Assembly (NCBI GenBank): GCA_947501845.1
Contig: CANMXP010000031.1
Span: forward strand, 1-45,545
From: an uncultured Flavobacteriaceae bacterium
Lineage (GTDB): Bacteria; Bacteroidota; Bacteroidia; Flavobacteriales; Flavobacteriaceae
Reading direction: 5' to 3'
Length of the DNA stretch: 45,545 nucleotides
In this document: positions 10,021-29,405 of the stretch, piece by piece
Layout: each line of letters starts with the position of its first letter
How positions within the stretch are numbered: position 1 is the first letter of the stretch
Notes under the pieces: model-generated
Database searches by the model: none
What the model saw: only the letters and a program-made list of their open reading frames with translations
What the model was told of the DNA's origin: nothing
Made by a program: the position numbers and the translations under genes

Positions 10021-13000
10021 CTAATCCTTTTCAGCACTTACAAATTGCAAAAAATCATCATTCTTTGCTACAATAATAAACTTGCCATTTTTAGTCTTAA
10101 TATGTTTCATATCTTTAACATCTCCTGGCGTAAAGAAACCACTTTCAGATGATGCTACAGCTTTAAAAGCACCATTGTTGTTTCCTTTTAAAAAGAGTCC
10201 GTAACCGCCATCATTTCTTGGTGTTTCAACTTCCGAAGAAAATAAATTCCCTGCCACTAGTGCATCAAGAACACCATCATGATCATAGTCATCAACTAAA
10301 ATGGTATTAATACTCGACATTTGAGCTTCAACAGGTAATTCATGGATTCTAAATTTTCCATCCTTATTTTCCAGATAGATGCTCGCAAAAGATTTCACCT
10401 GATAATGTAAAGCAGATTCTAAAGATTTTTCTTCGTAAACATCAATTAAGGTGGCCTCTGAAAAACTTTCGTAGTTCTTAAACTTTTCCTTAATTTGTGG
10501 GATTTGCTGTGATGAACATTCCCGCCCCCTTACAGGATATTGCTTGCCTTCATTATAATAGCTTAACACAATATCTTCTTTGTTATCATTATCAAAGTCA
10601 TTTACATAAATGTCAAAGGTTTCGTCTTCGGTCGCTTTATATTTATAATTAAGACCATTGTTGCCAACCATATAATCCATGTCACCATCACCGTCAAAAT
10701 CACCCGCATTGATACTCCACCACCATCCTGTAGTATCTTTAGTAAGACCAACGGCTTCCGATACTTCCTTAAACCCATTCCCCGTATTTTGAAATACCCG
10801 AATAGGCATCCATTCGCCAATTATAATTAAATCTTGCCATTCATCATTATTAAAATCGGTAACCATAGCACTTGTTGCCATACCCAAGTTTTTAAAAGGG
10901 TTGGCAAAGCTTTCGGTTACATCTTCAAATTTTGCAATACCGTTTTCTGTTTTATTTTCTAACAAAAAACTATGTGCAGGAATTGGATAATGACCTGGAA
11001 TTTGTCTTCCTAAGACCAACAAATCCTGTTTTCCGTCTTTATTAAAATCAAGATTATAGGCCTTGGATCCACTTACTATCATTTCGGGCAAAATACCTTT
11101 TGTCAAGTTCCCTTTCCCATCATTTATATATAATCTGTCTTGAAGCATTTTAGATTTTGGTGAAAATTCATAACCGCCGCTTACTACATATAAATCATTG
11201 TCCCCATCATTATCGGCATCAAAAATTAAGGCGCCCACGTCTTCACTTAGCTTGTCAGATTGAAATACTTCTGAGTCTTGAATTTCAAATCCGTTATCTT
11301 TTTGAAAAAACAAATGTCCAGTTCTATTAAACGACCCGCAAATAAAATAATCGTCTAATCCATCGTGGTTTAAATCACCAACAGCAAGGGCTGGACCAAA
11401 TGTTGACATTTTGTGAGGCAAAAGCACTTGGTATTTAAAATCGTCGAAACTATTTTCATCATGTTTATGTTCTGGAAAAACGCCTTTTACGTGAGAAGAA
11501 AACAATGCTTCTGAATCGTTTACACTAGTTCCTGAATCACTTTTTGCATCTGAATATTTTAAAACAATGGTTTGATTGCTTGAGATATTATTTAATTTTT
11601 GAATTTTTCCATCCGTCCAAATAACCTTTAGCTCATCAATAATTTCAGATTTAGCCAAACCAAAATGTATTTCTGGAGCTACCGAAGATTGAAACCCACG
11701 CGTTAGTGTTAGCTCTTGCATTTGTGTTTCTCCGTTAGAAGTAACAAAAACACGGTTGCCTAAACCAAAGCTATTCTTTTCGGTACCTTCAAATTGTATA
11801 CTCAAATAATTGTTGATTTCTGAACTTTTATTTTCAAAAACAGAGGCATAATCATCAATATTATTCGTAATAATTTCTAAATCGCCATCATTATCTAAGT
11901 CGGCATAGGCCACTCCATTAGAAAAACCTTTAAACTCAATACCCCAATCTTTATTAGTTTGTTTAAAGTTTAAGTCTCCATTATTTTTATAAATGAAATT
12001 ATCAATCTTTTCTGATGGGATTTTTAAACTCATGGCTAAGGTTTTATCACTATCAATCATAAAGGCATCATCAATTTGATTAAAGAAGTCCCTATTGTTA
12101 ACCTCGCGGCGTGTACCGTTTGAAACAAACAGATCTTTTAAGCCATCATTATCAAAATCTGCAAAGAGTGGTCCCCAGCTCCAATCGGTTGACGATACCC
12201 CTGTTAATCGAGAAATATTTGAGAAGAAGGGGTTTCCATCTTTGAAAACGCCCGTATTCACTTGCAAACAATTCTGCATGTACTGGTAATGAAAACCAGC
12301 ATCTACAACACCCCAAAACAGATCTGGGTTCATTCCTGCCATATTTGCTTTTTTACGTTTATTAGTTTTGGCGTCCATATCAACTTGAAAAACGTCCAGG
12401 TTTCCATCATTATTAAAATCGGAAATATCAACTCCCATACCATAGAAAGCAGTATGCGACATCACCTCTTTAACGACTTCCCTAAAGGTGCCATCTTGAT
12501 TATTCATATATAAATAATCTGGCGATGCAAAATCATTTGAAATATATAAATCTGGCCAGGAGTCGTTATTTAAATCACCAACGGTAGCACTTAATGTTAA
12601 ACCAAAACTTTTAACACCAGCTTCTTCTGTTACATCTATAAAAACAGCACCATCATTTCTATACAAATGATCCGTTTCGATATCATTTACATGAGCCATT
12701 TTTTGCTCGTAAACATAAACTGAAGCGTTGAATTTTGTTGGTGGATAATTAGCTACATAAACATCTAAATCTCCGTCTTTGTCGTAATCAAAAAAAGTGG
12801 CCTGTACGCTATTTCCAATATCTGCCAAGCCATAGTCTTTTGCTTTTTCTGTAAAAGTACCATCTTGATTATTGATGTATAATTGATTTTCCTTAGGCTG
12901 AAATTTACCCCCCACTGAGCAGTAAATATCTAAATAACCATCAGCGTTTACATCTGCCATGGTCACGCCTGTGTACCACCTTTTATCACCTGAAATATTT

Positions 13001-13329
13001 GCTTTTTTAGAAATATCTTCAAATTGTAGGTTTCCTTTGTTTAGGTATAGCTTGTTTGAAACTTGATTACCTGTAAAAAAAACATCTTTTAAACCATCAT
13101 TATTAATATCGCCAACAGCAACACCGCCTCCCATATACAAATAGGAGTAAGTAAAGTAATTTAGACTGTCATTTTCGGTAAGATTATTTGAAAAATCAAT
13201 TCCTGAAATTGATGCATTAAGCGTTTCAAAAACCTTTTTTGAGTTAACGGTTTTTTCTTCTTTTTTACAATTAAAAAAGAGTACTAAAGCAAATAAATAT
13301 GTTACTAATTTTAATACTCTTTTTTTCAT
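10021..13329 (-). CDS. Large FG-GAP/VCBS repeat lipoprotein with ASPIC/UnbV domain
   Basis: A 1102-residue surface lipoprotein from the ATG at 13329 (an ATG four codons earlier is less likely, because MKKRVLKLVTYLFALVLFFNC is a complete lipoprotein signal with Cys21). Two beta-propeller-like halves carry many FG-GAP calcium-binding loops of the form DxNxDGxxD: VGDINNDGLKDVFFTGN, FDYDKDGDLDVYV, ISDFNNDGNLDVF, FADFDNDGLKDLF, then VGDLNHDGLDDYF, IFDADNDGDNDLYV, AGDFDGDGDMDYM and others. Between the halves is an ASPIC/UnbV segment (LGNRVFVTS, LTLTRGFQSS, IHFGLAKSE, LKVIWTDGK). Proteins of this type recur in Bacteroidota glycan loci, with no firmly established function; glycan binding or surface assembly is a guess. 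It is the last gene of the operon, 15 bases after glpD. Confidence 0.9.
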   Translation of the reverse strand: MKKRVLKLVTYLFALVLFFNCKKEEKTVNSKKVFETLNASISGIDFSNNLTENDSLNYFTYSYLYMGGGVAVGDINNDGLKDVFFTGNQVSNKLYLNKGNLQFEDISKKANISGDKRWYTGVTMADVNADGYLDIYCSVGGKFQPKENQLYINNQDGTFTEKAKDYGLADIGNSVQATFFDYDKDGDLDVYVANYPPTKFNASVYVYEQKMAHVNDIETDHLYRNDGAVFIDVTEEAGVKSFGLTLSATVGDLNNDSWPDLYISNDFASPDYLYMNNQDGTFREVVKEVMSHTAFYGMGVDISDFNNDGNLDVFQVDMDAKTNKRKKANMAGMNPDLFWGVVDAGFHYQYMQNCLQVNTGVFKDGNPFFSNISRLTGVSSTDWSWGPLFADFDNDGLKDLFVSNGTRREVNNRDFFNQIDDAFMIDSDKTLAMSLKIPSEKIDNFIYKNNGDLNFKQTNKDWGIEFKGFSNGVAYADLDNDGDLEIITNNIDDYASVFENKSSEINNYLSIQFEGTEKNSFGLGNRVFVTSNGETQMQELTLTRGFQSSVAPEIHFGLAKSEIIDELKVIWTDGKIQKLNNISSNQTIVLKYSDAKSDSGTSVNDSEALFSSHVKGVFPEHKHDENSFDDFKYQVLLPHKMSTFGPALAVGDLNHDGLDDYFICGSFNRTGHLFFQKDNGFEIQDSEVFQSDKLSEDVGALIFDADNDGDNDLYVVSGGYEFSPKSKMLQDRLYINDGKGNLTKGILPEMIVSGSKAYNLDFNKDGKQDLLVLGRQIPGHYPIPAHSFLLENKTENGIAKFEDVTESFANPFKNLGMATSAMVTDFNNDEWQDLIIIGEWMPIRVFQNTGNGFKEVSEAVGLTKDTTGWWWSINAGDFDGDGDMDYMVGNNGLNYKYKATEDETFDIYVNDFDNDNKEDIVLSYYNEGKQYPVRGRECSSQQIPQIKEKFKNYESFSEATLIDVYEEKSLESALHYQVKSFASIYLENKDGKFRIHELPVEAQMSSINTILVDDYDHDGVLDALVAGNLFSSEVETPRNDGGYGLFLKGNNNGAFKAVASSESGFFTPGDVKDMKHIKTKNGKFIIVAKNDDFLQFVSAEKD

Positions 13330-29200: not shown

Positions 29201-29405
29201 TTTTAATAATGATGATTTTGAACCTACTGGTAAAAATAAGCATACTACAGATATTGTTCCTCGCGAGCATCTAAATTTAAATATTGATTACAAACAAATG
29301 GGTGTAGGTGGCGATACAAGTTGGGGACTCTTGCCTTATCAAGAGTATCTTATATATCCAGAACCTATGAAGTATACTTTTATTATTGAACCTATATTAG
29401 AATAG
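26292..29405 (+). CDS. GH2 beta-galactosidase (LacZ-like), secreted
   Basis: A 1037-residue enzyme of GH2 with the five-domain LacZ layout: jelly-roll (about 50-240, including [16 protein letters not shown] and [15 protein letters not shown]), immunoglobulin-like, TIM barrel, a second immunoglobulin-like domain and the C-terminal Bgal_small_N domain ([16 protein letters not shown]). The barrel carries [28 protein letters not shown], the acid/base Glu474 in [11 protein letters not shown] and the nucleophile Glu544 in [14 protein letters not shown] signal peptide ([20 protein letters not shown] after a short leader) directs it to the periplasm or beyond. It hydrolyses terminal beta-galactosides; in marine flavobacteria related enzymes act on agar or porphyran fragments as well as lactose-like sugars. 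It is divergent from the GntR regulator gene. Confidence 0.93.

Follow-up and report, generated by a model that had tools for sequence, protein, structure and literature searches.

A candidate alpha-galactosyl-glycerol regulon in Flavobacteriaceae joining a GH36-like enzyme to glycerol catabolism

Gene content and predicted proteins of the locus

The window, that is, the whole stretch of DNA analysed here, comprises the 45,545 nucleotides of contig CANMXP010000031.1 from an uncultured Flavobacteriaceae bacterium (assembly GCA_947501845.1, a genome of 5.37 Mb in 75 contigs). It carries a locus in which a SusC/SusD pair, a predicted cytoplasmic galactosidase, an SGLT-type symporter of the SSS family and two genes of glycerol catabolism form one compact unit on the minus strand. 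A preliminary description made from the sequence had reported this gene content and tight packing, and both were confirmed by open reading frame (ORF) calls and family matches. The features are as follows.

10021..13341, minus strand: FG-GAP/UnbV-ASPIC lipoprotein (Pfam FG-GAP_3, 243 bits; UnbV_ASPIC, 72 bits)
13345..15030, minus strand: glpD, FAD-dependent glycerol-3-phosphate dehydrogenase (Pfam DAO and DAO_C over cut-off)
15032..16513, minus strand: glpK, glycerol kinase (TIGR01311 equivalog, 687 bits, cut-off 590)
16531..18186, minus strand: SSS symporter, SGLT type (Pfam SSF, NCBIfam PRK10484)
18194..19963, minus strand: predicted GH36-like alpha-galactosidase, clan GH-D (Pfam, structure and motif evidence)
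19964..20129, minus strand: hairpin between SusD and the GH36-like gene (fold -35.3 kcal/mol, z -3.15)
20130..21698, minus strand: SusD-like outer-membrane lipoprotein (Pfam SusD_RagB)
21716..24730, minus strand: SusC-like TonB-dependent transporter (TIGR04056, 789 bits)
24756..24843, minus strand: operator cluster upstream of SusC (two exact copies and one with two mismatches)
25076..26092, minus strand: GntR-type regulator (Pfam GntR N-terminal domain; C-terminal part without a match)
26292..29405, plus strand: GH2 LacZ-type beta-galactosidase (NF052611 above cut-off; signal peptide by eye)

Read along the minus strand, the unit runs from SusC through SusD, the GH36-like gene, SSS, glpK and glpD to FG-GAP/UnbV, with gaps of 17, 166, 7, 17, 1 and 3 bases in that order; the 166-base gap holds the hairpin, and only 1 of 200 shuffles folds equally well. 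The GntR gene lies upstream of the unit and the GH2 gene diverges from it. Two features by which SusCD-type utilization loci are recognised were found, namely adjacent SusC and SusD homologues (17 bases apart) and a carbohydrate-active enzyme inside the unit (the GH36-like protein, with GH2 divergent). Family profile matches recognised no endo-acting enzyme among the nine genes of the locus and no lipase in the minus-strand unit. The listed start of the FG-GAP/UnbV gene is TTG, with an ATG four codons further in, and a lipobox-like FFNC was seen by eye.

The enzyme families had been described as firm beforehand, which is too strong for the GH36 assignment, as detailed below. The FGGY_N score of GlpK is 262 bits; a single further FGGY protein was found in the genome, at 157 bits. 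GlpD falls under the NCBIfam equivalog cut-offs (PRK12266, 321 vs 360 bits) and is the sole DAO_C match in the source genome. The reported lack of a glycerol facilitator is true of the unit; outside it, the genome encodes two channels of the MIP family.

The GH36-like protein has 589 amino acids, no signal peptide (by eye), and a nearest named relative in Flavivirga algicola at 92% identity. Its Pfam Melibiase score of 26.6 bits lies just under the cut-off of 27 (28.5 bits in a six-frame search), and the PDB, searched by sequence and by profile, gave weak matches to alpha-galactosidases of several GH-D groups. The AlphaFold model (mean pLDDT 86.5) gave 3mi6, 9awt and 2yfn as top Foldseek matches, with TM scores of 0.60-0.64 over the query at 13-14% identity (12-14% across the best-ranked structures) and GH31 structures close behind. 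An hhalign comparison with eight remote relatives picked for their DDGW motif (probability 98.8%, E 7.5e-17) aligned D331, in the motif KLD, with the KxD aspartate of those relatives. Residues D227, D228, K329, D331, R397, D400 and D404 are invariant in 35/35 sequences; going by what we take to be the GH36 motif roles, D331 is likely the nucleophile and either D400 or D404 the likely acid/base. The protein thus shares the GH-D fold and the DDGW and KxD motifs with GH36 alpha-galactosidases such as the Lactobacillus brevis enzyme (3mi6) and AgaA (4fnp), but differs in its low identity to them and in forming a separate clade almost confined to Flavobacteriaceae. It is a GH-D glycosidase near, not clearly within, the well-known GH36 groups; its GH36 assignment is remote, and alpha-galactosidase activity is a prediction.

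The SSS protein belongs to the same SSF family as the sodium/galactose symporter vSGLT (2xq2, 3dh4). At the eight positions that we take to form the vSGLT galactose site, alignment to 2xq2 showed N64, Q69, E88, Y263, K294 and Q428 kept and two changes, S91A and N260Q. The same six kept and two changed residues were found in 43/43 SSS proteins of at least 45% identity from GH36 loci, and also in 6/6 SSS proteins from SSS-glp loci without GH36. This pattern fits a sugar-like ligand, and the protein is probably the inner-membrane importer of the glycoside.

Recurrence of the locus and of its glycerol genes

A contig scan identified 49 orthologous loci at 51-92% identity to the GH36-like protein, 47 in Flavobacteriaceae, including Flavivirga, Zobellia, Maribacter, Aquimarina, Dokdonia and Flagellimonas, and two in metagenome-assembled genomes (MAGs) of Saprospiraceae. 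Among genomes of the family, 25/397 carry an orthologue (identity at least 56%), and 12 further places represent a sister group at 41-46%; among genomes of the phylum, near full-length matches occur in 7/395, the source genome's own included.

Neighbouring genes were counted in about 10 kb around the 49 orthologues, 10 of these stretches being cut by contig ends. Both glpK and glpD are near 18 orthologues, in eight cases as one fused protein of about 1059 amino acids (the two tested score above the equivalog cut-off for GlpK and also match models of GlpD). Galactose genes, named by NCBIfam on example loci, are also found (galK near 6, galT near 5 and galE near 2). Altogether, glp or gal genes lie near 23/49 orthologues, and both kinds near 3/49. 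In control loci they occur in 0/12 of the sister group and, as a single glpK, in one of 28 loci of remote alpha-galactosidase-like matches (23/49 vs 1/40, Fisher p 7e-7, relatedness ignored). The preliminary remark that glpK and glpD are rare in polysaccharide loci was put to the test on these control loci only. The preliminary suggestion that galactose and glycerol are released inside the cell is supported by the glp linkage and by the gal neighbours.

The other frequent neighbours were SSS of at least 45% identity (39/49), SusC (37), SusD (40), FG-GAP of at least 30% identity (38) and GntR (29). GH2 is present in three loci, all close relatives, and is an accessory rather than a conserved member. 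The close-packed orders GH36-SSS-glpK-glpD and GH36-SSS-galK-galT are both found, the latter in loci L025, L033 and L034; in L050 a small ORF separates SSS from galK. A LacA/Mac-like acetyltransferase gene (L012:11763-12323 and 17 other loci) usually lies between GH36 and SSS in a lacZYA-like manner.

At the level of whole genomes, glpK is present in 25/25 family genomes with an orthologue vs 160/372 others (p 2e-9, relatedness and genome size ignored), and it adjoins the GH36-like gene in 10 of the 25. Quick unrooted trees, in which gain and loss are not told apart, were built for GlpK (n=45, sequences selected as being close to the GlpK of the window) and GH36 (n=54). Adjacency to GH36 changes eight times and glpK-glpD fusion five times on the GlpK tree, and glp adjacency changes five times on the GH36 tree. 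The GlpKs of L040 and L185, the latter flagged as a long branch, lie outside the main clade and are 56-58% identical to the GlpK of the window. The GH36-like gene has therefore been joined by GlpKs from no fewer than two lineages. Locus L179 has an SSS-glpK-glpD unit without GH36, and looks like a loss of GH36 because its GlpK nests among GH36-linked GlpKs. The fused glpK-glpD of about 1059 amino acids (L009:13547-16714, L030:11755-14937 and others) accounts for 20/45 GlpKs, with and without GH36; it was dropped as proof of a pathway, 11 of the 20 cases having no GH36 orthologue in the examined stretch.

A direct-repeat operator and its reach

The SusC operator, RTAGCAYASWRTAKCAYAS, is a direct repeat of 19 bp whose half-sites are spaced 10 bp apart. 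Exact copies lie at 24825-24843 and 24789-24807; a third copy, at 24756-24774, has two mismatches. Across the loci, the 9-bp half-site was found in the upstream regions of SusC (31/36), GH36 (16/39), GntR (3/25) and FG-GAP (0/24), where base shuffles gave expectations of 1.2, 1.6, 0.8 and 0.6, respectively; these counts are partly circular, since the motif was derived from the same upstream regions. The half-site is absent upstream of SSS (0/3) and of fused glp (0/1) at GH36 loci. Inverted repeats, TACTTTNNNAAAGTA and ATACTN7AGTAT, were just moderately above shuffles and were superseded by the direct repeat.

The independent test of the operator is its position elsewhere in genomes. Allowing one mismatch, it was found in 25/25 genomes with an orthologue and in 1/25 chosen others, the reversed pattern matching in 3/50. 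In 24 of the 25 it shares a contig with GH36 at a distance of at most 14 kb, except that G326 has it on a different contig, between GntR and SusC; in G050 the sole site is inside an unrelated ORF. Four genomes (G001, G236, G388 and G377) have a glpK far from GH36, either over 100 kb away or on a separate contig, and in each of them an operator ends 33-39 bases ahead of the aligned glpK start; in G341 and G211 the operator stands just before a glpD away from GH36. These six genomes represent four genera, G001, G236 and G388 belonging to one (G001 and G388 match Zobellia records by coordinates). A two-mismatch operator precedes glpK in G018, and no operator was found before a glp gene in G026, G102, G396 and G120. 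Among the 25 chosen other genomes, 11 have glpK and none has the operator before it (6/15 vs 0/11, p 0.02, with three of the six from one genus). By adjacency in ten genomes and by the operator in six, the glycerol genes are thus linked to GH36 in 16/25. Conservation of glpK/glpD with this GH36, whose failure the preliminary description had set beforehand as grounds for rejection, was therefore observed both here and at 18 of the 49 loci.

In a scan of 354 genomes, 53 match the one-mismatch operator, comprising 22/22 with an orthologue (G050 included) and 31/332 without. The reversed pattern matches in 24/354, which implies that most one-mismatch matches outside orthologue-bearing genomes are due to chance. 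The exact operator occurs in 7/332 genomes without an orthologue, in six of them flanked by a GntR gene and by a SusC gene of a different type; one of these six, G032, carries a sister-group GH36. Genome G075, without a GH36 orthologue, also has a one-mismatch operator before glpK. The GntR regulator probably reads the direct-repeat operator, a pairing that is inferred. The regulon seems to reach past GH36, and the catabolic genes that most often accompany it are those for glycerol.

Several further sites were recorded. Loci L208, L209, L211, L212 and L213, without a GH36 orthologue, have the exact operator between GntR and a different SusC; nearby are FG-GAP and a further gene of lipoprotein or multihaem-like type. 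In G236 an exact operator (L193:8098) precedes a TetR-type gene with GAPDH-like and aldose-epimerase-like genes downstream (by eye). The SusCD-GntR group of G326 (L197:4666-9353) adjoins galK and galT as well as two genes assigned by eye, one for a NUDIX-type regulator and one of LacI type. In the source genome itself, a one-mismatch site on contig C25, between sigma-factor-like and anti-sigma-like genes (by eye) beside another SusCD, was judged a chance match.

Proposed substrate and competing explanations

On this evidence we consider it fairly probable that this locus forms a regulon for the catabolism of an alpha-galactosyl-glycerol, with the red-algal floridoside or isofloridoside as the most likely candidates. 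The glycoside would be taken across the outer membrane by SusC/SusD and brought intact into the cytoplasm by the SSS symporter, where the GH36-like enzyme is predicted to split it into its galactose and glycerol halves. The glycerol would then be converted to dihydroxyacetone phosphate by GlpK and GlpD, and galactose would be used via GalK/GalT/GalE; some relatives carry galK at the GH36 locus, and in the source genome it lies elsewhere. The direct repeats ahead of SusC are most likely bound by the GntR protein. Gene context gives good support to galactose and glycerol as the products, and a galactosyl-glycerol is the likely substrate class; floridoside in particular is suggested by its biology, as a main photosynthate and osmolyte of red algae. 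Sulfoquinovosyl- or glucosyl-glycerol is not favoured, because galK/galT accompany GH36 in some loci. That the system is a dedicated floridoside regulon of marine Flavobacteriaceae, with a clade of GH36-like floridoside hydrolases, a dedicated importer and a 10-bp direct-repeat operator uniting uptake, cleavage and, in trans, glycerol catabolism, is a narrower proposal to which we give about an even chance.

Of the natural galactosyl-glycerols, floridoside is the one that is abundant and soluble in red algae (PMC8703398, PMC10972271, PMC12323150). Among the matches listed in the open literature, subscription journals and preprints being outside its scope, no bacterial floridoside locus was found; in the available parts of one report on carrageenan loci (PMC6262041) the alpha-galactosidases are GH110 and floridoside is not mentioned.

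A number of observations weigh against the galactosyl-glycerol proposal. Neither glp nor gal genes are near 26/49 orthologues, with the proviso on contig ends given above, and the only galK found in the source genome sits on another contig, C26, where no operator was found. At GH36 loci the half-site is absent upstream of galK (0/3) and glpK (0/2), and the operator-GntR-SusC-FG-GAP arrangement recurs in genomes without a GH36 orthologue. In some loci SSS adjoins glp genes without GH36, and fused glpK-glpD occurs near SSS, galK, galT, galE and galM-like genes without GH36 (L168, L175 and L177; some by eye). In four GH36 loci (L016, L045, L049 and L050) the SSS is a more distant one, in which Q69 is replaced by T and N260 by G. 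Regarding the hosts, ten MAGs carry codes matching those of a Weihai study, as far as its nomenclature could be matched by name (PMC10233909), and these point to six from red algae, three from Ulva, one from Saccharina and 0/10 from seawater or sediment. The locus thus occurs in MAGs of red, green and brown algae and red algae are not exclusive; with no base rates for the ten, the red-algal link was not used as support. A GH50-type agarase domain (PF17992) was found in 0/25 genomes with an orthologue and in 3/397 overall, too rare for agarase co-occurrence to serve as a test.

Given such hosts, galactolipid-derived substrates may also be involved. Galactolipids occur in all three algal groups, which would suit the Ulva and Saccharina MAGs, and the GH2 LacZ-type enzyme adjoins the regulator gene; lipase-freed mono- or digalactosyl-glycerol could then lose alpha-galactose to the GH36-like enzyme and beta-galactose to GH2, leaving glycerol. 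A digalactosyl-glycerol variant of this kind had been part of the preliminary description and fared poorly, because GH2 is confined to so few loci; in addition, no operator was found between GntR and GH2, GH2 looks secreted and GH36 cytoplasmic (by eye), and the minus-strand unit has no lipase, although an alpha/beta-hydrolase gene lies beyond GH2 (29560-30402). Galactolipid head groups are hence considered unlikely as the substrate. The SSS could instead import free glycerol for GlpK/GlpD while GH36 acts on something unrelated, as might be read from L179, from SSS beside fused glpK-glpD without GH36 in L168, L170, L174 and L175, and from the operator before glpK in G075. We regard such glycerol scavenging as very unlikely, as an SSS of at least 45% identity is retained at most GH36 loci, including those without glp, it keeps most of the vSGLT galactose-site residues, and L179 itself looks like a loss of GH36.

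GH36 enzymes usually cleave sugars of the raffinose, melibiose and galactomannan-oligosaccharide type, and the many loci without nearby glp or gal genes would agree with an ordinary alpha-galactoside locus in which glpK/glpD are accidental. The repeated joining of glp genes to GH36, the same operator before distant glpK/glpD and the single glp link among the 28 remote alpha-galactosidase-like loci speak against this, and we hold it to be highly improbable.

Elsewhere in the window, a plus-strand gene at 39519-40265 strongly matches Lipl32 (272 bits), a Pfam family named after Spirochaetales surface lipoproteins and here present in a flavobacterium. On the minus strand, PD-(D/E)XK nuclease and UvrD-like helicase genes (30404-33163 and 34978-38109), presumably an AddAB-like pair, flank an OmpA-family gene.

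The locus resembles the SusCD-type polysaccharide utilization loci of Bacteroidota in its SusC/SusD pair, dedicated regulator gene and glycoside hydrolase in the unit, but has one cytoplasmic enzyme, no recognised endo-enzyme, glycerol-catabolic genes and a probable small substrate. As in the Escherichia coli lac operon, a galactosidase, a permease and, in 18/49 loci, a LacA/Mac-like acetyltransferase stand at one locus, whereas here the enzyme is of the alpha type, uptake involves SusCD and glp genes are present. The operator makes membership of the regulon predictable in other genomes. If the galactosyl-glycerol proposal is true, the GH36-like clade, the symporter variant and the operator would serve as markers for tracing consumers of a small algal solute, and the locus would be a case of a SusCD system at work on a small glycoside instead of a polysaccharide.

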